A DNA stretch of 9,905 nt from Deltaproteobacteria bacterium (lineage in GTDB: Bacteria > Desulfobacterota > Desulfobacteria > Desulfobacterales > JAFDDL01), in NCBI GenBank assembly GCA_019310865.1, contig JAFDDL010000142.1:1-9905 (forward strand), given 5' to 3'. Positions 1 to 9,905 of the stretch are shown here, piece after piece. Made by a program: the position numbers and the translations under genes. The notes beneath the pieces were generated by a model, which saw nothing but the letters and a program-made list of their open reading frames with translations, was not told the origin of the DNA and searched no databases. Positions within the stretch are counted from its first letter, which is position 1. Each line of letters opens with the position of its first letter.

Positions 1-1546
1 GGCCTTCTCCGGGGTGAAGTTCTCGTCGATATATTCTTTCATGAGGTCAAATACCGGGCGAACCTTGACCTTTTCTCCGTTGATGGTGGTCACTTCAAAG
101 CGCCCTTCAAGGGCCGGATCAGCGGTGAGATGCTCACCGTAATCGTCCCGGCCTACGGCCGCAGGGGCGTTGGCCTTAAGATCCCACACCACATAGTCTC
201 CCCACTCGGCGGCAAGGGCTTCCGGGATCAGCTGCTCATGGTGCTCTTTCAGGGAAGGCTTCTTGGCTCCCTTTTTGATGACCCGCGTGTGGCGGGTCGG
301 GGTCTTTTTCTCATACCCGGCGATAATTTCTTCAGGACGGAGAAAATCGAGTGTGTCGAGTCTCACGAGAAACGGCAGGTCGGTATTTCGCTTGACATGC
401 GCGCCATCGTGCAATTTTTCCTGTATGATGACCTGCGCCATACTGAGGGCAAACGCCGGATCGGTGGCCGGCCGGATGACAATCACCTCATCCGATCGGC
501 ACGCGGTGGCCGGATATTCCACGGAAATGGTAACAATCTTGCTGCCTTTCAGCCGTGCTTCGGTGAGCCAGTGGGCATCAGGCATCTTGGTCGCGATCCA
601 GTTCATCCCCCACACCAGTATCAGTTTGGACCGCTCCACGGCGAAAAGCTCAAACTCGTTGGTCTGTGCACCGGTGACCATTGGATGGCCCGGCGGAAGA
701 TCCGTATGCCAGGAATAACTGTCCCATCCCCGGGCACCCAGGGCTTTCTCAGGGGAAACGCCGCGAATGTGATGGTCCATGAGGCCGAGCATGTTGGCAA
801 AGCGGTAATAGCCAAAAATCCGGGTGGCGCCCAGAAACGCCATGCCGCCTCGGAACTTGAGCGTCTGGGTGCCGGCCCCGTGCATGGCCGCCACCATGGC
901 AGGGTCGTACCCCTGCCGGTTCAGGTACCCCTGTCCCGTCTCCCCGGAATAGGTGACAGCAATATTATGAAGGCTCCTGGCAGCCAGTTCAAACGCTTCG
1001 TCCCAGGGCAGCTTCAACCATTTGTCCTCCCCGCGTTTAAAATATTTTTCCGGCGGCTTGCCCGTATCCGGATCCCTTGGGAATCCGGCTTCCACCCATG
1101 ACTTGAAGCCCTTTCGGACCATGGCGCCTTTGACGCGCCGGTCTCCGTAGATCCGCCTGACCAGAGCCGAACCCTTCTGGCAGATTCTCGGGTCCCAGCG
1201 GCGGGACGCCCGGTTGCCGTACAGGTCGGTGGCTTCCCCGTACCGGTAGGAGGGGCTGATTCTCGTAATCACGCCGTTTTTCACATGCGCTTTCAGCAAA
1301 CAGTTATGGGTGTCATTGGGCGCGCAGAGGAAATGAAATTCGCTGTCTGCGGCATAGATATTTCGGTACACCCTCTCCCAATCCCTGTCCGGATACGTCT
1401 CCAGCGGACTGTCTGTCGTCGGCTCCAGAAAAGTAGCCAGATCCGGCTGGCACCCGGCCAGCAGCATGCCGGCACCGGTGCCGGCGGTCAGTTTCAGAAA
1501 GGCCCTTCTGGATATTAGCTCCTTGCCCGTGCTTGTTTTCCGCCAT
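1..1546 (-). CDS. NarG/NxrA-type molybdopterin oxidoreductase alpha subunit, 5' part, with apparent frameshift near start
   Basis: Partial: it runs off the left edge, with about 515 of the usual 1000-1200 residues visible. One frame is open from about 1545 down to 1. It begins with a Tat signal (SRRAFLKLTAG) followed at once by MLLAGC, a possible lipobox, so export to the periplasm is expected. Next comes the N-terminal Fe-S motif, C-x3-D-x3-C (CAPNDTHNC), then the fourth ligand in DPRICQKG. SWHTDLPP (about 697-674) matches the NarG segment holding the Asp ligand of molybdenum. LVWGMNW and KMPDAHWLTEARLKGSK match NarG MWGSN and TPDAHFFTEVRYKGTK. This places it in type II DMSO reductases: NarG, archaeal pNar, Nxr. 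The only good start, ATG at 1546 with AAGGGG six bases upstream, is in another frame. Removing one A from the AAAA run at 1536-1539 joins them as MAETSTGKELISRRAF. Rieske and cytochrome b genes lie directly upstream. Nitrate reduction or nitrite oxidation cannot be decided here. Confidence 0.85.
1536..1539 (-). other. Putative one-base indel in an AAAA run (frameshift site)
   Basis: The ATG at 1546 opens frame MAENKHGQGANIQKG, which continues 77 codons without resembling any family. The Tat signal and molybdoenzyme lie one base out of phase and have no ATG, GTG or TTG between the cytochrome b stop and the twin arginines. Dropping one A of this four-base run restores a continuous and plausible N-terminus. 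The cause could be a sequencing or assembly error, a true mutation, or an unusual start. The rest of the gene is one clean frame for 1.5 kb, which favours an error or a very recent event. Confidence 0.7.
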
Positions 1547-1552
1547 ACAAAA

Positions 1553-1558
1553 CCCCTT
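1553..1558 (-). promoter_or_regulatory. Ribosome binding site of the NarG-like gene (AAGGGG)
   Basis: AAGGGG sits six bases before the ATG at 1546, in the 15-base gap after the cytochrome b stop. A second Shine-Dalgarno-like AAGGAG (1519-1524) lies inside the N-terminal region, but only ATA follows it in the molybdoenzyme frame. It therefore does not offer a conventional alternative start. Confidence 0.6.
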
Positions 1559-1561
1559 TTC

Positions 1562-3109
1562 TTAATGGATCGGCCATTGGCTTTTGGACCAATAGAAATC
1601 CCAGTTGGGTCCCCTCAGTTCGGTTCCCACATAGGTGAATATCAGAAAGCTGATCAGAAACAGGGTGAACATGGCGATGGCACCCATCCGAGTGGATCCG
1701 GTCCGGTGAATGACCCATAAGGACCAGAAAGTCATAAACCCGATCCAGATCGTCCCCGGATTGATCAGGACGATGATCAGCTGCGGGATATTGGGCCACC
1801 AGTTTCTGAACCAGCCGAAATTGATGACAAACGCAAGGAGACCGATCAGTACAAAGGTCCCCAGGGCAAGGGCTCCCAGGGCCACGCGTCGTCCCTGGCG
1901 GTTTGAAAACCAGACACCCACATGAAGCGGCTGTCTGTCGAGGTAGGGTATGAGCGCAAGGCCCAGCAGGGCAACGGCGGGTAGAGCGATGCCACCCATG
2001 AAAGCAGAGTAGGACACCAGCTCCTGAAGCCCGAGAAAATACCAGGGGGCCTTGGCCGGGTTTTCAGGAATCAGCGGATTGGCAAGCTCTTTGAGAGGCG
2101 CATCTATAAAATAGGAATACACCACCACCCCGGCCAGGCAGAGCATAAAGACGGCCACTTCGGCCCGCAGCAGATGGGGCCAGCTCATTACGGTGTTTTC
2201 CACATCGTCGTTTTCCACTGCAGGCGTTTTTCCTCGCACCAGCGCCATCAGGCCATAGGTCTTGGTGGTTGGAAAGAGGCGCTCCGTTTTTCCCGGCAGG
2301 GCGCCGGGCTTTATTGGCTGGAAATTCTCCGGAACGGTCAGCCCGCCGTCTTTTCTGATTCGCCAGAAATGAGCGCCGACAAAGAGGGATAATATAAGGG
2401 GAAGCAGCATAATGTGAAGGAAATAGACCCGTGTGAGGGTGACCTGGCCGGGGGTCAACCCACCCAGGAGGAGTTCCTTTTGAAACCCTCCGATGTCGAA
2501 TATGCCGGTGAGTCCCAGAATATCAGTGATCTCCTTGGGGGCCTGGGCGATATTCGAACCGATGACCAGCGCCCAGTATGAGAGCTGATCCCAGGGCAGC
2601 AGATAGCCCGTGTAGTTCAGTACAAAAGTGAGCGCAAGGAGTATGATTCCGACAACCCAGTTGAATTCCCGCCCTTGCTTGTAAGAGCTGGTATAAAACA
2701 CCCGGCCCATATGAAGCAGGAGAAAAAGAATCATCCCCTCGCCGGCCCATTTGTGAATGTTTCGCAGCAGCCTCCCGGCGAAGACAACAAAGTTGATGTC
2801 CTTTACGCTTTCATAGGCACCCTCCACGGACGGGGTGTAATAGATCATCAAAAGAGCGCCGGATACGAACGTGATCAGCAGCAGATAGAACGTGATAAGA
2901 CCCAGGCCGAATGTATAGGTGGGCCTCAGCGTGTTCAGATGTGTCTTGCTGCCCTGGATGTGGAGGAAAAAGTTGTTGGCGATCACGGCAGTCCTTGACC
3001 TGTCGGATGAAGGCCGGCCGCCCCTTAGAAAAGAACGGACAACTGTATTCTTAATGGAAAGGATGTTCTCTTTAAATTCGTTGAGTCCCGAGCGGGTCGG
3101 CCCAATCAT
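1562..3109 (-). CDS. Single-chain b6-type cytochrome b of a Rieske/cytochrome b complex
   Basis: 515 residues joining the b6-like half and the subunit IV-like half in one chain, about nine or more membrane helices. Heme ligands are His119 and His133 (H-x13-H, in NIHKWAGEGM..LLHMGRVF) and His232 and His247 (H-x14-H). The 14-residue spacing in the second pair is the b6f-type feature. The Qo-site PEWY motif reads APWY (354-357, in PAKAPWYFLGLQE), and the chain ends with the usual TYVGTELRGPNW segment. Aligned with plant b6, the Cys that binds heme c_n is Gly68, so that covalent heme is not expected. About 60 residues before the first helix form an extended cytoplasmic N-terminus. It follows the Rieske gene by 15 bases with a strong AGGAGG before the ATG, and precedes the NarG-like gene. 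It should oxidise quinol in the membrane together with the Rieske protein. The order Rieske, cytochrome b, NarG-like parallels narB-narC-narG of halophilic archaea. Confidence 0.95.
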   Translation of the reverse strand: MIGPTRSGLNEFKENILSIKNTVVRSFLRGGRPSSDRSRTAVIANNFFLHIQGSKTHLNTLRPTYTFGLGLITFYLLLITFVSGALLMIYYTPSVEGAYESVKDINFVVFAGRLLRNIHKWAGEGMILFLLLHMGRVFYTSSYKQGREFNWVVGIILLALTFVLNYTGYLLPWDQLSYWALVIGSNIAQAPKEITDILGLTGIFDIGGFQKELLLGGLTPGQVTLTRVYFLHIMLLPLILSLFVGAHFWRIRKDGGLTVPENFQPIKPGALPGKTERLFPTTKTYGLMALVRGKTPAVENDDVENTVMSWPHLLRAEVAVFMLCLAGVVVYSYFIDAPLKELANPLIPENPAKAPWYFLGLQELVSYSAFMGGIALPAVALLGLALIPYLDRQPLHVGVWFSNRQGRRVALGALALGTFVLIGLLAFVINFGWFRNWWPNIPQLIIVLINPGTIWIGFMTFWSLWVIHRTGSTRMGAIAMFTLFLISFLIFTYVGTELRGPNWDFYWSKSQWPIH

Positions 3110-3113
3110 AGCT

Positions 3114-3119
3114 CCTCCT
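3114..3119 (-). promoter_or_regulatory. Ribosome binding site of cytochrome b (AGGAGG)
   Basis: AGGAGG stands four bases before the ATG at 3109, in the 15-base gap after the Rieske stop codon (TAG, 3125-3127). It supports this start rather than a later one nearer the first membrane helix, and so supports the long N-terminal extension. Confidence 0.75.
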
Positions 3120-3124
3120 CAAAC

Positions 3125-3595
3125 CTAAACCGTAAAGGTTGTTCCTCTTTTTATCTCCCTTGCGGCATCCACCACCAGGGTGCCATCCACATTCTGGCTG
3201 ATTTCAAGCCAGGGCAGGTCCCTCGGCGCCGGCCCGGCAATCACTTTACCGTCCCGGTTGTATTTCGAGCCGTGGCAGGGACAGAGAAAACCGCTTTCGG
3301 AAATCGCCACCAGACACCCCAGATGCGTGCAGACGCTGGAGATGGCATGGATCCCGTCAGTGTCTGAAAAAACATAGATCATTTTGTCTTCAAGTTTTTT
3401 GACGATGCCCACCGGGAAGTTTTCTGGTTTTCCGATTTTGAATCTCTTGGACGCCTCGTAGTAAACGTTGGGTTTGGTCAGTCTTAAAACGCCGGCAAGT
3501 GCGGCCAGCGATGACAAAAGGACCGCCGCAAACGAAGCGAGGCCGAGAAAATCCCGCCTGGAAACGCCTGATTTCTCCTGGTTCTCATCACTCAT
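3125..3595 (-). CDS. Rieske [2Fe-2S] iron-sulfur protein
   Basis: 156 residues. The Tat motif SRRDFLG (12-18) is followed by one membrane helix (about 18-38), which in Rieske proteins remains as an uncleaved anchor; the soluble domain then faces the periplasm. The cluster motifs are complete: CTHLGC (89-94) and CPCHGS (105-110), with the Gly-Pro-Ala-Pro loop (121-124, [10 protein letters not shown]) after them. The two motif cysteines Cys94 and Cys107 could form the stabilising disulfide. KYNRDG follows CPCHGS, so the Tyr that raises the potential in high-potential Rieske proteins is present or nearby. The start overlaps the 3' end of the flavoprotein gene by eight bases and has an excellent AAGGAGG nine bases upstream, so translation is probably coupled. 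It pairs with the cytochrome b gene immediately downstream as the quinol-oxidising core of a bc-type complex. Confidence 0.95.
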
Positions 3596-5471
3596 CGCCC
3601 CATACCTCCTTGAAATTAAATGCCTCCATGGTTATCGCCCCCACCGGGCACCGTTCAGCGCATAAGCCGCAGCGAATGCAGATAGTTTCATCTTTGATGA
3701 TGGCTCCGGCGTCGGAAGGAAGCAGATCACCTGGATAGTTCTGAAGAAGCTTTTCATAATCGGCACTGCCCTGGAGGGCTTCCACCGGCACCAGTTTCAG
3801 ACAGTATTCCGGGCATATATCCGCACACCCGCCGCAAAGGATGCATTTTTCACTATCGAAAATGGTATTGACGCTGCAATTAAGGCATCGGCTTGCCTGA
3901 CGCCTGCCCTGGTCTTCAGTGAATCCCTTTTCAACCATAAGGTTCATGGCCTTCTTGCGCTCTTCGGGCGGCATGACCGGCACACCTTCCCGCGGGATCT
4001 CCTCGTATCCGCATTCCCGACTGTACCCCTTAATCTCCGAATGCACCAGGGTCGTCGTGAATGAAATCTCTTTTCGGTTCAGGTAGGTGTAAATTCTCCT
4101 TGCAACTTGTTTGCCGCTGGCGATGGCGTGGATCATGAGTTTGGCGCCATAGGCCACATCCCCTGCGGCAAAGACGCCTTCGGCCTCCGTCATGGAGCCG
4201 GCCGAATCAAGCTTCAGCTGCCCGCGCTCATTCAGGGCGATATCCGCCGAGTCGATGAAGCTCAAATCGGTGTCCTGGCCAATGGAGAGAAACACCTTGT
4301 CCGCATCCAGCGACATCACCGTGGTGTCGTCGTATTGGGGGGCAAACCGGCGGTTTTCATCAAAGATGGACAGGCATCGGACAAACGAGACGCCGCATGC
4401 CCGGCCATGGTCATCCACCAGGATCTCTTTCGGTCCCCATGAGTTGTATCGGGTAATCCCCTCTGCCGCGCCGTCTTCAATTTCTTCCGTATCGGCCGGC
4501 ATCTCCGTCAGGGACTCCAGGCATACCAGATGAACCTCTTTGACGCCCTTCTGGCGGATGGCGGTTCGCGACACATCGTATTCCGTCTGCCGTACCAGGG
4601 TTCTGGCCACATCGTAGGCGACATTTCCGCCGCCAATCACGACAACCTTCTCCCCCAGCGCCACCTCTCTGTCCAGCGCCACATCCTTTAAAAAATCCAC
4701 CCCGCCGATAACACCCGGCGCATCGATGTTTGGGATGGGGATTTTCTTTGATTTTTTGGCTCCCACCGCAATGAGCACCGCATCGTGCCGGGCACGCAGC
4801 TGCGTCATGGTGATGTCTTTTCCGACCTGGACATTGCAGACAATGTCGGTCCCCAGGGCCTTGATAACCTCAACCTCTGCTTCAATGAGACGACGCGGCA
4901 GCCTGTATTCGGGAACGCCCAGGTAAAGCATGCCGGCGGGAACGGGCTCCATTTCATAAATCACCGGCTTGATTCCCAGCAAACAAAGATCGTGAGCCGC
5001 TGCCAGCCCGGTCGGGCCGGAGCCGATGATCCCCACAGTGGGTGATGTGTCGGAAAGCGTTGGACTCTGGAAATGCTTTAGAAGGTTTTTGATATCTTCA
5101 AAATCTTCGCATTCATCTTCCGTCATGGAAAGAAACCGTCGAATCACCTGCAAGGGGCTCTTATCGTATCGTCCCGATTCAACACCGAATTTTTCTGTCA
5201 CGAATCTTTTTAATGCACGGATGGAAATGGCTTCATCGAAATCCGCCCTTCTGCAGGCCGCCTCACACGATGCACCGCAAATTCTGCCGCAAATGGACGC
5301 CAGCGGATTGGGACCCCGGGCAATCAGATATGCCTTTTCAAAGTCACCGTCCGCGATGGCGCGCACATAACCCCTGGCATCGGTATAAACCGGGCAGGCG
5401 TCCTGGCATTTAATCTGTTTCTTCCAATAAGCGATATCGGGGATTTCAATGGGAAATTTCTCTTTTTTCAT
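3588..5471 (-). CDS. GltD-like FAD/NAD(P) oxidoreductase with N- and C-terminal Fe-S domains
   Basis: 627 residues with no export signal or membrane helix, so cytoplasmic. Domains in order: an N-terminal GltD-type Fe-S region with Cys22, Cys26 and Cys61/65/69/73 ([13 protein letters not shown]); an FAD-binding Rossmann motif GIIGSGPTG (147-155); an NAD(P)-binding motif [13 protein letters not shown] (278-290); the closing FAD motif [11 protein letters not shown] (432-442); then RCLNC (528-532) and two [4Fe-4S] ferredoxin motifs, [12 protein letters not shown] (543-554) and [12 protein letters not shown] (598-609). Glutamate synthase small subunits are about 450-480 residues and lack the last part. 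Where NADPH-type relatives have the pair Arg-Arg before the EMPA motif, this protein has Leu-Glu ([10 protein letters not shown]), suggesting NADH. No glutamate synthase large subunit is nearby. The start overlaps the nrfD-like stop (ATGA) and the end overlaps the Rieske start, so it is most likely a subunit or partner of the membrane complex, passing electrons between NADH and the quinone-reactive proteins. Confidence 0.87.
3605..3611 (-). promoter_or_regulatory. Ribosome binding site of the Rieske gene (AAGGAGG)
   Basis: A full AAGGAGG lies inside the last codons of the upstream flavoprotein gene, nine bases before the Rieske ATG at 3595. It decides the start and shows that the eight-base overlap between the two genes is real. 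Confidence 0.75.
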
Positions 5472-6718
5472 GGCGGCTCCATGGAAAATGCCTTATCATA
5501 GCGATCCTCAATAATCAAAGCCGGCTTGATCAACATGGTAACGACAAAGATGCCCAGGGCCAGGACGCCAAGGGTAATGCATATCTCCACGCCGGTGGGT
5601 GTGTAATCGACGACTTCTCCAAGGGGTGACGGAATCAGGCCCGGCACAATCAGCCCGACACCTTTTTCGATCCAGATCCCCACAAAAAGAAGAAATGACG
5701 CCGGAAAAAGCACCTTGGGGTTGTTTTTCCCGGGGTTGAAGGCCAGCACCAGTGTACCGATGAGATTGATGCTGACGGCACTCCAAATCCACGGCACCAG
5801 AGAATTGTGGCCCTCCAGCCCGAAGAAGAGATAGATCGCCGAGAGGCTGTGATGGGTGGGCGTGTAAAACTCCTTAAACACCTCGGAGAAGAGCATGATC
5901 AGATTGATGATTGCGGAAACCACAATGACCAGCCTCAGTTTATTAAACAGCTGCTTTTCGATCTTATAGGTGGTGGTGGAATGAACGATAACCAGCACCA
6001 TGGTGATCAACGCCGGGCCGGCCGCAAAGGCGGATGCCAGAAACCTGGGTCCCAGCAGGGGGTTGTTCCAGAAGGGTCTGGCAGGGAGGCCTTCATAAAG
6101 GAAAGCGGTAACCATATGGATGGCAATGGCCCAGAATATGGAAAGGAAAACAAAGGGCCGGTACTTTCTTTCATCGGGTTTTTGAAAATTGTATCGGCAA
6201 TAGAGGATGTATAGGGGCACCAGCAGGTTCAACGCCAGATAACCATTTAGCACGATCACATCCCAGGTCAGGATTGAAGAGGGCCAGTTGAACAGGCCGA
6301 TCACCGGCATGAGATGCCATGCGCGCAAGGGCCCGCCAAGATCGATCAAAATAAACATCAGGCACATGACCAGTGCGCCCACCGCTACCCCCTCCCCTAT
6401 GATCACCACCCTGTGGAAATCCTTGTCCCTGAATATATAGGCGGGAAGGATCAACATGACGGCCGCCGCCGCAACGCCCACCAGGAATGTAAAGTTGGAG
6501 ATATAGAGCCCCCAGCTGATAATATTGGTCATGCCGGTGGCGGAAAGCCCCTGGGTAAACTGTATTGAATAAGCATAAACACCCAGCACCATGAAAGCAA
6601 GCAGTGTGCACAGATAAATCTGGTAGCGGATGCTGCCGGTTAAACTCCACAAGATCCCATCCTTGAAAAAAGAGAGCATTCCCTTGGGGTGCGTTTTTTC
6701 CATTGCTACTTCATTCAT
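5468..6718 (-). CDS. nrfD: NrfD/DsrP/PsrC-family membrane subunit (quinone-reactive)
   Basis: 416 residues, very hydrophobic, with about ten predicted helices (roughly 33-53, 66-92, 104-126, 147-172, 186-206, 226-247, 262-282, 307-326, 337-355, 376-398). The helix content, the DLGGPLRAWHL segment (126-136) and the C-terminal segment EKGVGLIVPG...SPLGE...YTPTGVE are typical of NrfD-type proteins; I judge them closest to DsrP of the DsrMKJOP complex, from memory. The family exchanges electrons between membrane quinones and a partner ferredoxin but carries no cofactor itself. That partner is the Fe-S gene immediately upstream (37-base gap), as in NrfCD, DsrOP and PsrBC. The stop codon overlaps the next start as ATGA, so translation of the FAD protein is coupled. 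ATG at 6718 has AGGA about nine bases upstream; a second ATG five codons later is possible. Confidence 0.9.
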   Translation of the reverse strand: MNEVAMEKTHPKGMLSFFKDGILWSLTGSIRYQIYLCTLLAFMVLGVYAYSIQFTQGLSATGMTNIISWGLYISNFTFLVGVAAAAVMLILPAYIFRDKDFHRVVIIGEGVAVGALVMCLMFILIDLGGPLRAWHLMPVIGLFNWPSSILTWDVIVLNGYLALNLLVPLYILYCRYNFQKPDERKYRPFVFLSIFWAIAIHMVTAFLYEGLPARPFWNNPLLGPRFLASAFAAGPALITMVLVIVHSTTTYKIEKQLFNKLRLVIVVSAIINLIMLFSEVFKEFYTPTHHSLSAIYLFFGLEGHNSLVPWIWSAVSINLIGTLVLAFNPGKNNPKVLFPASFLLFVGIWIEKGVGLIVPGLIPSPLGEVVDYTPTGVEICITLGVLALGIFVVTMLIKPALIIEDRYDKAFSMEPP

Positions 6719-6755
6719 ATGCTATTTTCCTAAGCCGGTTAAAGAGGACTCGATG

Positions 6756-7733
6756 TCAATCAATGAAATACCAGAATTTCGGGTCTGTCCCCAGCTCCTC
6801 CTTCATCCGAAACACCTTTTTGTTTTTCAGCACAAACCTGATTTCGCTGTTGGGGTCCAACAGATTCCCGAAGACCCTGGAGCCGGTGGGGCATGCCTCA
6901 ACGCAAGCCGGGAGTCTGCCATTCCGTGTTCTTTGCACGCAGAATGTGCATTTTTCCATCACACCCCGTGTGCGCACCCGGTTGCCGAGATAGTGCTGCT
7001 TACGGGTCATTTCCGCCAGGGGAATATCCGGCTCCCGCCAGTTGAAACGTCGTCCAAAGTAAGGGCACGCCGCCATGCAATATCGGCAACCGATGCACCA
7101 GTCGTAATCCACCACGACAATCCCGTCGGGCTCTCTCCAGGTTGCCTTTGTGGGGCAGGCTTTGGTACACGGGGCATTTTCGCAGTGAAAGCACTGTACG
7201 CCCATGTAGAAATGATCCGCCACCGGCACTTCATGGAAATATTTTCCATCCCCCGATTCCACGTTCATTTTGCCGTGTTCCATCTCGAAGATGCGTACGT
7301 ACTGTGTTTTCGAACTTCGATCGAGATTATTCTCCTTCACGCAGGCAGCCACGCAGTCCATGAACCCTTCGCATCGGGAAACATTAAAGGCATAACCGAA
7401 AAGTACATTCTCCCTCGGCTTCCGGTTGCTGATCTGGATGTCCACGCCGCGTTTCAGTTTTGCCAGCCGTTCCAGACGTCGGACCGTCTCTTGCTTTTCC
7501 GCCTGGGTCATCAGGCGATAATTGCCCTTGAAATATTCCTGCCACTTTAGAGCAAGCGCCTCGTTTGAGCCGAGCAGACCGCTTCCAGCACAGCCGGTCA
7601 CCATCATAGCGCCGCCCACAGCAGCGGTTTTTACGGCGCCTTTAAGGAAAGCGCGCCGGCCGCACTTTTTTTCTGACGGGTGATTTTTCTTTGCTTCCAT
7701 CTGACCTTCTTTGTCTTTAAGGACATCCATCAT
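6756..7733 (-). CDS. Tat-exported four-cluster ferredoxin subunit (NrfC/DsrO/HybA type)
   Basis: 325 residues. The Tat signal GRRAFLKGAV (25-34) is followed by VTGC (45-48), a possible lipobox, so the protein is periplasmic and perhaps lipid-anchored. Fe-S motifs: the first set is Cys121, Cys127, Cys131 with Phe at 124 where the second Cys normally stands; the others are complete, CFHCENAPCTKACP (181-194), CIGCRYCMAACP (213-224) and CTFC...CVEACP (262-282). The first site may therefore hold a [3Fe-4S] or a differently ligated cluster. This is the standard electron-transfer partner of NrfD-type membrane proteins, and its gene precedes nrfD here. The start is uncertain: ATG 7733 or 7730 just after the stop of the tetraheme gene, or ATG 7700, which has AGAAGG in front and would shorten the region before the twin arginines. 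It probably takes electrons from the NrfD-like subunit and hands them to the tetraheme lipoprotein. Confidence 0.88.
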   Translation of the reverse strand: MMDVLKDKEGQMEAKKNHPSEKKCGRRAFLKGAVKTAAVGGAMMVTGCAGSGLLGSNEALALKWQEYFKGNYRLMTQAEKQETVRRLERLAKLKRGVDIQISNRKPRENVLFGYAFNVSRCEGFMDCVAACVKENNLDRSSKTQYVRIFEMEHGKMNVESGDGKYFHEVPVADHFYMGVQCFHCENAPCTKACPTKATWREPDGIVVVDYDWCIGCRYCMAACPYFGRRFNWREPDIPLAEMTRKQHYLGNRVRTRGVMEKCTFCVQRTRNGRLPACVEACPTGSRVFGNLLDPNSEIRFVLKNKKVFRMKEELGTDPKFWYFID

Positions 7734-7739
7734 ATTCCC

Positions 7740-8363
7740 CTATTCGCTTATGGGGAGTGAATATGTTCGGGGCCACCGTTTTTCGAACCGCGGAGAATGC
7801 GGATTGTGACAATGGGTGCAATTTTTAACCACCCGCTTACCGGCCCAGTGAGAAACACGTTTGCCGTGGGCACCGCCGACCCAGTCTTTCTTCTGTCTGA
7901 AATGGCATTGTCCGCACATCTGGTAGCTATGATCGAAATCGACCTTTACACCCTTCTCGGTAATCAGAAAATCACGCTCATCCTGTTTGTGGCAGGTGGA
8001 ACAGGCCAGTTGCTTGCCCTGCTCACCATGAATCATGGCGATATCACCATGGGCCATTTCAGCGGCCTTTTCAATATGGACCTCTTTGTTGTTGTGGCAG
8101 TGGCTGCACTTAAAACGCTCGATCTTCGCCTTGCGGGTTTCGGTCCAAAAAACAATGCCCTGGTATTTGGTCTTCACCAGGACCGTTTTTCCGGCAGCAA
8201 GGGAGAAGGCACCGACACTTTCTTCGCCTTGAAAAGCTGCGGTCGCCTCTTTTATCCTCTGGGAGACGCCGCCATGACCGGCGTAGTCCTTACATCCGGT
8301 GACGGTCAGGCAGAACAGCGCCAGCGCCAAAGAAAAATAATGCTGAAAAGATAGTGGCATCAT
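7740..8363 (-). CDS. Tetraheme c-type cytochrome lipoprotein
   Basis: 207 residues. A short hydrophobic signal peptide ends in the lipobox VTGC with Cys24 as lipidation site; no twin arginine is present, so Sec export and lipid anchoring are expected. Four CxxCH heme motifs stand at 86-90 (CSHCH), 121-125 (CSTCH), 150-154 (CGQCH) and 182-186 (CTHCH, in CTHCHNPHSP). Additional histidines (96, 105, 112, 145, 166, 172, 189) are enough to supply distal ligands for bis-His hemes. The CxxCHxPHS ending is common in NrfB-like and c7/c554-like multiheme proteins. I do not recognise a named family. Its place directly before an NrfC/NrfD pair is that of NrfB, so it probably receives electrons from that pair and relays them to the NapB-like protein. 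ATG at 8363 follows AAGGA by four or five bases; a second ATG follows immediately. Confidence 0.88.
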   Translation of the reverse strand: MMPLSFQHYFSLALALFCLTVTGCKDYAGHGGVSQRIKEATAAFQGEESVGAFSLAAGKTVLVKTKYQGIVFWTETRKAKIERFKCSHCHNNKEVHIEKAAEMAHGDIAMIHGEQGKQLACSTCHKQDERDFLITEKGVKVDFDHSYQMCGQCHFRQKKDWVGGAHGKRVSHWAGKRVVKNCTHCHNPHSPRFEKRWPRTYSLPISE

Positions 8364-8390
8364 AAGGTCCTTGTCTGATCTGTATTACGA

Positions 8391-9071
8391 TTATCTTTGA
8401 AACGGCGCCACCGGAACGTCCGGCACATGGCACTGTCTGCAATATCCCCGGGAGGGATGTTCGGTGCGAATCGTCACCACCGCGCCGGGCCCCACGTGGC
8501 AGGCGATACAGTTTTCCCGCATCTGAAGATCATGTGCAATTGGCGGCGGTGCGCCCGGCAGATAGGACCTGCCCAACCGCGGTGGCGGTACGCTTAACCA
8601 GTCGATTTCCCGGAACAGCTGATCGGTTCCAGCTTTGAGGTGACACTGCCTGCAGCTGGTTTGCTCCGGGTGGGGGGTAAGGGGCGTATGACGCTTTAGC
8701 TCTTCGGTCCAGCCGCCTTTGACGTGGCATGTCAGGCACGCAATCTTCTGTCCCCACTCCTCGGCAAGGGGGTGCGGGATTTCGGGGGGGGAGCCGGCAT
8801 ATTGCCGTCGGGCGTAATAGTCACTGAGGGTTCGCTCAGTTGAGCCGCCTAGCAGGTAGTCCCTTGATATCTCGGCGTAATTTTCGAAGATCGCCGCTCC
8901 GTTGTTATCGAAGTTTTCCGAACCGGTTTCAGGTGGTGTCACCACGGGTTGCCCCTGCTCATGGGTGAAAGCGGACAGTACGATAAATACCACCGCCGCC
9001 ACGCACAGTCCGGCAAATACAAGAAAAAACCTTCCAACCTTTTGTTCTGATTTCCCTGGGGTTTCCATCAT
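8391..9071 (-). CDS. napB: Membrane-anchored tetraheme NapB-like cytochrome (duplicated diheme module)
   Basis: 226 residues, starting at ATG 9071, which overlaps the napA stop as ATGA and has GGAG six bases upstream; an upstream in-frame ATG at 9095 has no such support. One helix (about 15-35) without a clear cleavage site suggests an N-terminal anchor. CxxCH motifs are at 112-116 (CLTCH), 140-144 (CRQCH), 188-192 (CIACH) and 211-215 (CRQCH). Ordinary NapB is a soluble diheme protein of about 150 residues with PPxIPH before the first motif and CxQCHVP at the second. Both signatures appear twice: GSPPEIPHPL...CLTCH...CRQCH and GAPPPIAHDL...CIACH...CRQCHVPD. It therefore looks like two NapB modules in tandem. 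Role: electron donor to NapA in the periplasm. The symbol is given for family and position; the protein is not a canonical diheme NapB. Confidence 0.87.
   Translation of the reverse strand: MMETPGKSEQKVGRFFLVFAGLCVAAVVFIVLSAFTHEQGQPVVTPPETGSENFDNNGAAIFENYAEISRDYLLGGSTERTLSDYYARRQYAGSPPEIPHPLAEEWGQKIACLTCHVKGGWTEELKRHTPLTPHPEQTSCRQCHLKAGTDQLFREIDWLSVPPPRLGRSYLPGAPPPIAHDLQMRENCIACHVGPGAVVTIRTEHPSRGYCRQCHVPDVPVAPFQR
8424..8576 (-). repeat. NapB-like module 2 (protein-level repeat)
   Basis: Residues about 166-216 of the same protein. It shows Y-L-P-G-A-P-P-P-I-A-H, then CIACH eight residues on, then CRQCHVPD 23 residues after the first motif. This module is the closer match to the C-terminal end of ordinary NapB. 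Confidence 0.65.
8637..8807 (-). repeat. NapB-like module 1 (protein-level repeat)
   Basis: Residues about 89-145 of the tetraheme NapB-like protein. It shows the order Y-x-G-S-P-P-E-I-P-H, then CLTCH twelve residues on, then CRQCH 28 residues after the first motif. Same order as the second module, with a longer loop between hemes. Confidence 0.65.
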
Positions 9072-9905
9072 GCTCGCTCCAGTTTCACGGCGCATTTTTT
9101 ATAATCCGGTTGCTTGGAAATGGGGCAGAAGGCATCCAGGGTAACCTCATTGATCAAGTAGCTTTCGTCGAAAAAGGGCACGAAAACCATCCCCCTGGGC
9201 GGCATGCCGCGGCCGTTGATGCTGGCCTTCATGACAACAGCGCCTCGACGCGAGCTGATCTTGACCCGACTGCCATTGGTGATGCCCAGATTGGCAGCAT
9301 CATCGGGATGGATCTCCACATACGACTCGGGCATGGCCTTGTGCAAGATGGGAACCCGCCGGGTCATGGAGCCGGTATGCCAGTGCTCCAGCACCCGGCC
9401 CGTGTTGAGCCAGAAGGGGTAATCGCTGCCCGGTGATTCCGCCGGCGGTTCATAGGGCCGCATCCAGATCCAGGCTTTGTTGTCCGGCTTACCGTAAAAA
9501 TCAAAATCATCACCCTTGGCGGCCGGGTCGTACTTGGGATTGTAGCGCCACTTGGTCTCCTTGCCCGCCACAAACGGCCACTGGATGCCGGATCTCGCTT
9601 TAAGCTCTTTGTATGGGGCCATGCGGTGTTTGGGATTGTCGTGGAATTTCGTGTACTCGTTCCAGATATCTTCGATATACGTTTCCCGGCTCCAGGGGAA
9701 CTGCTTTTCATATCCCAGACGCCGGGCCACCTCGATGAGCTGCCAGGTGTTGCACATGGCCTCCCCGGGGGTGGGAATGATCTGCTCGTTATGTTGGGTG
9801 CGCCGTTCCGAGTTTCCGAAAAAACCTTCCCGTTCAACCCACAGGGCCGAGGGGAGAACCACGTCGGCCACATCAGAAGTGGGGGTTGGATAGATCTCGG
9901 AGACC
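9068..9905 (-). CDS. napA: Periplasmic nitrate reductase catalytic subunit, C-terminal part
   Basis: Partial: the frame is open to the right edge, leaving about 278 C-terminal residues of a protein normally 750-830 long. The start and the [4Fe-4S]/molybdenum-cysteine region lie outside the window. VADVVLPSALWVEREGFFGN with SERRTQ following matches the NapA cofactor-domain segment. The C-terminal molybdopterin-binding domain is highly characteristic: NTGRVLEHWHTGSMTRRVP (about 9406-9350), then the IHPDDA and SRRG segments, GRGMPPRGMVFVPFFDE, LINEVTLDA, and the terminal SKQPDYKKCAVKLERA. These match NapA rather than assimilatory NasA or formate dehydrogenase. The enzyme binds bis-MGD and reduces nitrate to nitrite in the periplasm. 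It is followed by the NapB-like cytochrome gene with overlapping stop and start. No NapC, NapGH or NapD is visible downstream; they could lie upstream of the window. Confidence 0.94.
   Translation of the reverse strand, partial: VSEIYPTPTSDVADVVLPSALWVEREGFFGNSERRTQHNEQIIPTPGEAMCNTWQLIEVARRLGYEKQFPWSRETYIEDIWNEYTKFHDNPKHRMAPYKELKARSGIQWPFVAGKETKWRYNPKYDPAAKGDDFDFYGKPDNKAWIWMRPYEPPAESPGSDYPFWLNTGRVLEHWHTGSMTRRVPILHKAMPESYVEIHPDDAANLGITNGSRVKISSRRGAVVMKASINGRGMPPRGMVFVPFFDESYLINEVTLDAFCPISKQPDYKKCAVKLERA

Follow-up and report, generated by a model that had tools for sequence, protein, structure and literature searches.

Nine genes, all on the minus strand, fill a 9,905-nucleotide stretch of Desulfobacterales DNA (contig JAFDDL010000142.1 of assembly GCA_019310865.1, positions 1 to 9,905; hereafter the window), and their tight packing raises the question of whether they encode one respiratory machine or several. 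The row runs from NapA, two tetraheme cytochromes and an NrfC/NrfD-type pair to a flavoprotein, a Rieske protein, a cytochrome b and a second molybdoenzyme. A first-pass annotation made from the sequence alone had counted these nine genes correctly and had suggested a single super-complex or two coordinated nitrogen-oxide enzymes. The reading we favor, at a probability of roughly 0.55, is that two separately conserved modules lie end to end and would give quinol two parallel ways to reduce nitrate, with electrons bifurcating to NAD(P)+ in one of them.

Module 2, the second half of the row, consists of the flavoprotein (positions 3588..5471), the Rieske protein (3125..3595), a cytochrome b (1562..3109) and the molybdoenzyme alpha subunit (1..1467, the N-terminal 489 residues counted from the first in-frame ATG and truncated by the window end). 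Pfam and Kuenenia homology identify the flavoprotein as an NAD(P)-type, GltD-like flavin adenine dinucleotide (FAD) protein with N- and C-terminal Fe-S domains and no hydrophobic segment. The cytochrome b, annotated simply as such at first, proved on alignment to Kuenenia and by hydropathy to be a b6 part fused to a subunit-IV part. A profile from 25 aligned flavoproteins was scanned against genome contigs and at least 567 relatives were confirmed, from which the best 80 loci were kept; being chosen by the flavoprotein, these are uninformative on cytochromes b generally. A Rieske gene follows the flavoprotein in 78 of the 80 and a cytochrome b gene in 77, the contig ending in the three that lack the latter (L049, L063 and L068). 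By record titles, with those of metagenome-assembled genomes (MAGs) taken as given, the loci span more than 15 phylum-level groups. A PHROGs search with the flavoprotein returned nothing useful.

The downstream genes were surveyed in the 52 of these loci with at least 7 kb past cytochrome b. All except one contain an open reading frame (ORF) with at least four CXXCH motifs (51/52), and 43 contain a molybdoenzyme, which is NapA-like in 26, NarG/type II in 11 and NXR-type (nitrite oxidoreductase) in six, so that the proposed tie between a Rieske/cytochrome b pair and a NarG/Nxr-like gene is supported. With the NapA model, two of the NapA-like proteins reach 314 and 277 bits, against a cut-off of 904; in L003 the best PDB match of the NapA-like protein is a periplasmic nitrate reductase, and its NapG-like and NapH-like neighbors are both below their cut-offs. 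A hexaheme cytochrome gene stands at the operon end in L110 (Desulfobacterales HyVt-363) and L013. L013 carries module 2 and the same downstream genes as L110 (beta, gamma, chaperone and hexaheme) with no Nap, and its genome yielded no cytochrome-1 match.

The best PDB match of the window Rieske protein is 9rk4 (95 bits, E 3.8e-26), which we take to be Kuste4569. Genome G442 matches the 9rk4 fragment at 100% and is taken here as Kuenenia; its loci L137 and L138 are assigned to Kuste4569-4574 and Kustd1480-1485, because their subunit make-up is as published and the published residue numbers land on the right letters. Against L137 and L138, respectively, identity is 33% and 35% for the flavoprotein (about 620 columns), 44% and 32% for the Rieske protein and 43% and 42% for the b6 part of cytochrome b. 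The anammox link suggested in the first-pass annotation thus proves to be one of direct homology. The Kuenenia complexes and the window alike encode a Rieske protein, a b6-type cytochrome b, a subunit IV and an NAD(P)-type flavoprotein together. Of 17 conserved flavoprotein cysteine columns, 16 are common to each Kuenenia flavoprotein, and the window flavoprotein has the cysteines for four Fe-S clusters. Subunit IV is described as five-helical in Kuenenia (PMC12954380), and five hydrophobic segments were found in the corresponding window part; in the b6 part, where four were expected, hydropathy shows just three. The differences are that b6 and subunit IV are fused in the window; that the Rieske gene comes first in Kuenenia, whereas the window order is flavoprotein, Rieske, cytochrome b; that neither the window nor L110 has an HAO-like octaheme protein, an NXR-type enzyme standing in the operon instead; and that the window complex is without the heme cN cysteine that both Kuenenia complexes have. 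Because that cysteine is absent, we regard the window complex as a probable variant of the FAD-linked, anammox-type Rieske/cytochrome b complexes.

An additional b heme was modeled with AlphaFold3 at His43 of Kuste4571 and His62 of Kustd1481, with an Arg and a Lys nearby (PMC12954380). All three residues are present in the window cytochrome b. Across 77 cytochrome b ORFs from 74 of the 80 loci, of which 72 with the heme-ligand signature were kept and five dropped, the His is found in 72/72, and the Arg and the Lys are each found in 67/72 (four gaps and one other residue in each case). The heme cN cysteine occurs in none of the 72 (Gly in 69, Ala in three), nor is the window residue Cys. Heme cN has been seen as the site of a feared loss of electrons to quinone (PMC12954380), so the absence of its cysteine would remove that site. 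The flavoprotein Arg that the models place near the extra heme in Kustd1483 corresponds to R607 of the window. With the two Kuenenia rows included, 12 of 13 have this Arg, and Kuste4570 has an Asp at the position. Among 66 Rieske ORFs collected from 65 loci, 63 carry the second-sphere Ser typical of high-potential Rieske proteins (one has Ala and two lack the motif), and the window Rieske protein has both Ser and Tyr (CPCHGSKY), as in L137.

The second molybdoenzyme had been called NarG-like, a label we correct to NXR-type. It is homologous to NxrA over the full length at 43% identity, and the full-length ortholog in L110 scores 923 bits against NxrA of 7b04, with the next solved protein at 193. 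Canonical NarGHJI was rejected on the 152 bits of the same ortholog versus a narG cut-off of 1084. C67, N70, D71, C75, C115 and D275 of Kuenenia NxrA, with roles as given in PMC8387239, are kept in the window and in eight other rows, Kuenenia included; the FS0 ligands with their Asp-ligated motif, the Mo ligand and the substrate Asn are all present. Met155 and Lys305, ligands in NxrC, are present in the gamma subunits of six relatives. In a 38-row tree with one named NxrA reference, to which the window contributes a partial row covering 42% of the kept columns, the window falls in a 30-row clade whose sister is a pair formed by the NxrA of Kuenenia and a second NxrA found in G002 (supports 100/99 and 100/100). 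By these comparisons the enzyme is NXR-type and lies outside the named NxrA clade. The second G002 NxrA (L187, 8735-12247, from a Desulfobacterales MAG) is possibly a contaminant. Downstream of a further NXR-type cluster, in L200 of G223 (2115-16600), lie small cytochromes and three genes, for proteins of 560, 410 and 329 amino acids; that these three encode an oxidase is only a guess.

Module 1 begins with the C-terminal 278 residues of NapA (9068..9904, truncated by the window end). The fragment scores 350 bits with the NCBIfam NapA model and a full-length ortholog in L107 scores 991 versus the cut-off of 904, so the catalytic subunit of a standard Nap system is present. Cytochrome 1 (8391..9095) is a membrane-anchored tetraheme protein with four CXXCH motifs and one hydrophobic segment. 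The first and second halves, 34% alike across 50 residues, give it the look of two joined NapB-like units. The L107 and L108 orthologs exceed the Pfam NapB cut-off of 25.1 (41.8 and 33.0 bits, in two stretches apiece), and the L109 ortholog (22.6) and the window protein (14.0) fall short of it; the earlier NapB-like label therefore holds weakly, for two of three orthologs and not for the window copy. Cytochrome 2 (7740..8363) is a tetraheme protein with four CXXCH motifs and, as read from its sequence, a lipobox-like VTGC that marks it as a putative lipoprotein.

The NrfC-like protein (6756..7733), a predicted periplasmic multi-[4Fe-4S] protein with a twin-arginine-like N-terminus, scores 188 bits with the DsrO model, below the cut-off of 200. 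The NrfD-like protein (5468..6718), a predicted quinol-side membrane subunit with 10 hydrophobic segments, scores 393 with the DsrP model, above the cut-off of 350. The NrfCD-type donor to Nap foreseen in the first-pass annotation is thus found, with DsrO/DsrP as its closest relatives. It shares with DsrOP of DsrMKJOP and with NrfCD the combination of a periplasmic Fe-S protein and a 10-segment quinol protein and differs in its neighbors, NapA and two tetraheme cytochromes. With Pfam and NCBIfam models, no match to DsrM, DsrK or DsrJ was found among the nine genes, and no diheme NapB, NapC or NapGH donor is encoded by them, the region upstream of NapA lying beyond the window.

Module 1 loci were collected through the cytochrome-1 gene, independently of the flavoprotein, with G001 as the seed genome. 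Matches were found in 10/345 genomes of its phylum at E <= 0.001, four of them strong, and in 26/242 genomes of its order at E <= 1e-10. The resulting sample comprises 28 loci besides G001, 25 from the order search and three from the phylum search. The order NapA, cytochrome 1, cytochrome 2, NrfC, NrfD is complete in 23 of the 28, counting L227 (a small ORF before NrfD), L223 (NapA in two pieces) and loci with outer genes shortened by a contig end. NapA is lost to the contig end in two others (L242 and L244); no NrfD was called in L225, NrfC and NrfD are both absent from L229, and L245 has no module 1 partner called beside cytochrome 1. A cytochrome-2 relative follows cytochrome 1 in 27/28. 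No flavoprotein occurs in any of the 28 loci, with sequence running on for 3 kb or more beyond NrfD in 19 of them. An octaheme cytochrome of L109 (5318-6817) starts within four bases of the NrfD end; it is distantly hydrazine dehydrogenase-like (76.6 bits versus a cut-off of 900) and possibly a nitrite reductase.

From this gene content we infer the electron routes, their direction and the bifurcation. In module 1, the DsrP/NrfD-like membrane protein would oxidize menaquinol, and electrons would pass through the DsrO/NrfC-like Fe-S protein and the two tetraheme cytochromes to NapA for nitrate reduction. In module 2, the FAD-linked Rieske/cytochrome b complex would oxidize quinol and divide its electrons. 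The high-potential electron would travel from the Rieske protein to a hexaheme cytochrome, encoded at the operon end in relatives, and on to the NXR-type enzyme acting as a periplasmic nitrate reductase, while the other would pass through the b hemes, the further b heme, four Fe-S clusters and FAD to NAD(P)+. Textbook potentials are about -80 mV for menaquinone, -320 mV for NAD(P)+ and about +420 mV for nitrate/nitrite; from these, the two branches together would run downhill by about 0.26 V, which speaks to feasibility and is not proof. Both Kuste4569-4574 and Kustd1480-1485 have been proposed to make NAD(P)H by bifurcation (PMC12954380), and Kuenenia NXR is reported to reduce nitrate as well (PMC8387239). 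A broader proposal, to which we give somewhat less than even odds, is that a flavoprotein-linked Rieske/cytochrome b class without heme cN, widespread across many phyla, sends the electrons of menaquinol partly to NAD(P)+ and partly to nitrate, with NapA-like, NarG-like and NXR-type enzymes as interchangeable exits, and that the window holds an NXR-type member.

Several observations weigh against the two-route reading. No multiheme gene adjoins cytochrome b in the window, and no recognized molybdoenzyme was in reach in 9/52 downstream regions. A search of the 345 genomes that did not depend on the flavoprotein gave nine NXR-type loci in eight genomes, of which only four adjoin module 2 (G001, the seed; G028; G182; and one of those in G206), or 3/8 without the seed. 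A constant association was therefore rejected, the four being among the six loci at 55% identity or more and none among the three at 39-43%. In a control set of 37 cytochrome b matches from 12 genomes, 30 with loci checked, the extra-heme His is present in 15/15 cytochromes b with a flavoprotein within about 1.5 kb and also in 8/15 without one, so it was dropped as a marker of the flavoprotein link. Of the seven others, six lack the entire His-rich segment, and in L161 a Gln replaces the His. Among the flavoprotein-linked proteins, 12/15 are without the cN cysteine and three keep it (two of Kuenenia and one of G696). On these counts, the His marks a class wider than the flavoprotein-linked one, and loss of cN marks the fused form of cytochrome b.

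Wider flanks of the eight that have the His and no near flavoprotein show a flavoprotein-like gene (39%) on the opposite strand about 5 kb away in L183, a gene distantly resembling GltD (31%) at about 6 kb in L179, and module 2's own flavoprotein about 12 kb upstream in L110; L180 and L185 are short contigs. The L110 set, downstream of module 2 (15581-20000), comprises a second Rieske protein, b6, subunit IV and seven-heme set with no flavoprotein of its own. L181 of G005 (4565-16000) has Rieske, b6 and subunit IV genes next to NarG/NarH-like ones that are accompanied by gamma and chaperone genes, and no flavoprotein was called there.

GltD-type flavoproteins commonly oxidize NAD(P)H, and the direction of module 2 is not readable from its sequence. 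Electrons might thus run from NAD(P)H through the flavoprotein to the b hemes and quinone pool, making module 2 an NAD(P)H-linked quinone or nitrate reductase without bifurcation. We consider this unlikely, although it fares best of the alternatives: the cN cysteine is missing, the Rieske protein has the high-potential Ser and Tyr, and such a reaction would waste energy where complex I exists, as has been argued for Kuenenia (PMC12954380).

Less probable again is that the NXR-type enzyme oxidizes nitrite, with the Rieske/cytochrome b complex engaged in reverse electron transport. All checked active-site and FS0 residues of NxrA are kept, and NXR is reported to work in both directions (PMC8387239). 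However, the clade of the window enzyme excludes the one named NxrA, and its 43% identity is near the 40% given for Nitrotoga and Hydrogenobaculum and not the 60% given for other nitrite oxidizers (PMC8387239). Its gene also shares the row with that of NapA, and the organism is a Desulfobacterales relative that presumably lives anaerobically.

There are precedents for pairing Rieske/cytochrome b complexes with nitrogen-oxide enzymes. A cluster in Caldithrix abyssi combines Nap genes with Rieske/cytochrome b genes (PMC5317091), and in most Nitrospirales genomes that have an octaheme nitrite reductase its gene adjoins Rieske/cytochrome b genes (PMC12342949). The Caldithrix cluster differs from the window in having NapM and NapGH in place of a DsrOP-like pair, and the accessible text on it mentions no flavoprotein or NXR-type enzyme (PMC5317091). 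It was read there as a canonical complex, and by that precedent module 2 could be a proton-pumping bc complex feeding the molybdoenzyme, with the flavoprotein a mere neighbor. This we hold to be very unlikely given the position of the Rieske gene after the flavoprotein in nearly all of the (flavoprotein-selected) loci above, the overlap of the window genes, the presence of this trio at both Kuenenia loci, and the reported co-migration of all Kuste4569-4574 subunits (PMC12954380).

Among the genomes examined, the two modules are joined only in the window and in L001/L110, and both occur in only 2/345 genomes (G001, the seed, and G331), too few for a co-occurrence test. The cytochrome-1 gene was found in one of the best 80 flavoprotein loci, some of which have little upstream sequence. 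L110 retains NapA and cytochrome 1, followed by a short, stop-containing remnant of the cytochrome-2 lipoprotein gene (1264-1599), no NrfCD and then the flavoprotein, from which point module 2 appears intact. The gene order thus recurs once, partly decayed, and the halves are otherwise conserved mostly as separate modules. By its conserved neighbors, the flavoprotein goes with Rieske/cytochrome b and not with Nap, and the joined operon is best understood as two putative working units brought together at the level of a lineage rather than as an obligate complex. That all nine products form one super-complex or coordinated respirasome is the least probable reading of all, for its support in the tight packing, the overlaps (four bases shared by the NrfD and flavoprotein genes) and the recurrence of the junction in one other genome is set against 28/28 other Nap loci without the flavoprotein, the single cytochrome-1 gene beside a flavoprotein, and a module 2 that seems to have outlasted cytochrome 2 and NrfCD in L110.

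The preferred reading of two parallel routes bears on the anammox complexes themselves. A Rieske/cytochrome b complex that makes NAD(P)H has been proposed for anammox bacteria, and no driving reaction had so far been proposed for Kustd1480-1485, according to the authors (PMC12954380). The same core, found across phyla and usually beside nitrate-type molybdoenzymes, names a candidate for that reaction, in that module 2 could use nitrate to drive NAD(P)H formation. The conservation in 72 sequences is also an independent check on the AlphaFold3 extra heme, and versions without heme cN offer a simpler testing ground for the low-potential path. None of the titles and abstract openings listed by literature searches, which left subscription papers and supplements outside, concerns an NXR-type enzyme beside a flavoprotein-linked Rieske/cytochrome b complex; as far as these searches reach, the novelty lies in the flavoprotein-linked form without cN, in how widely it is spread and in its association with an NXR-type enzyme.

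The closest named relatives of the window proteins include Desulfobacterales MAGs. From NapA to the molybdoenzyme, the intergenic spacings are -28, 27, 6, 37, -4, -8, 15 and 94 bases; gaps of 40 bases or less with several overlaps, as first described, are borne out for seven, and the last measures 94 from cytochrome b to the first in-frame ATG. Promoter-like sites in the window are near shuffle level (eight versus a mean of 5.8, standard deviation 2.4) and terminator-like sites exceed it (26 versus a mean of 12.3, standard deviation 3.2); all 12 minus-strand terminator-like sites are intragenic, with none in any gap. Given this and the NrfD/flavoprotein overlap, co-transcription of the nine genes in the window organism is plausible. 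The twin-arginine frame of the molybdoenzyme, SRRAFLKLTAGTGAG, has no ATG, GTG or TTG of its own before the Met at 1467, and an ATG at 1546, 15 bases after cytochrome b, opens a frame that does not continue into SRRAFLKLTAGTGAG. The start region at 1467-1546 thus contains an apparent frameshift, a sequencing error or an unplaced start.

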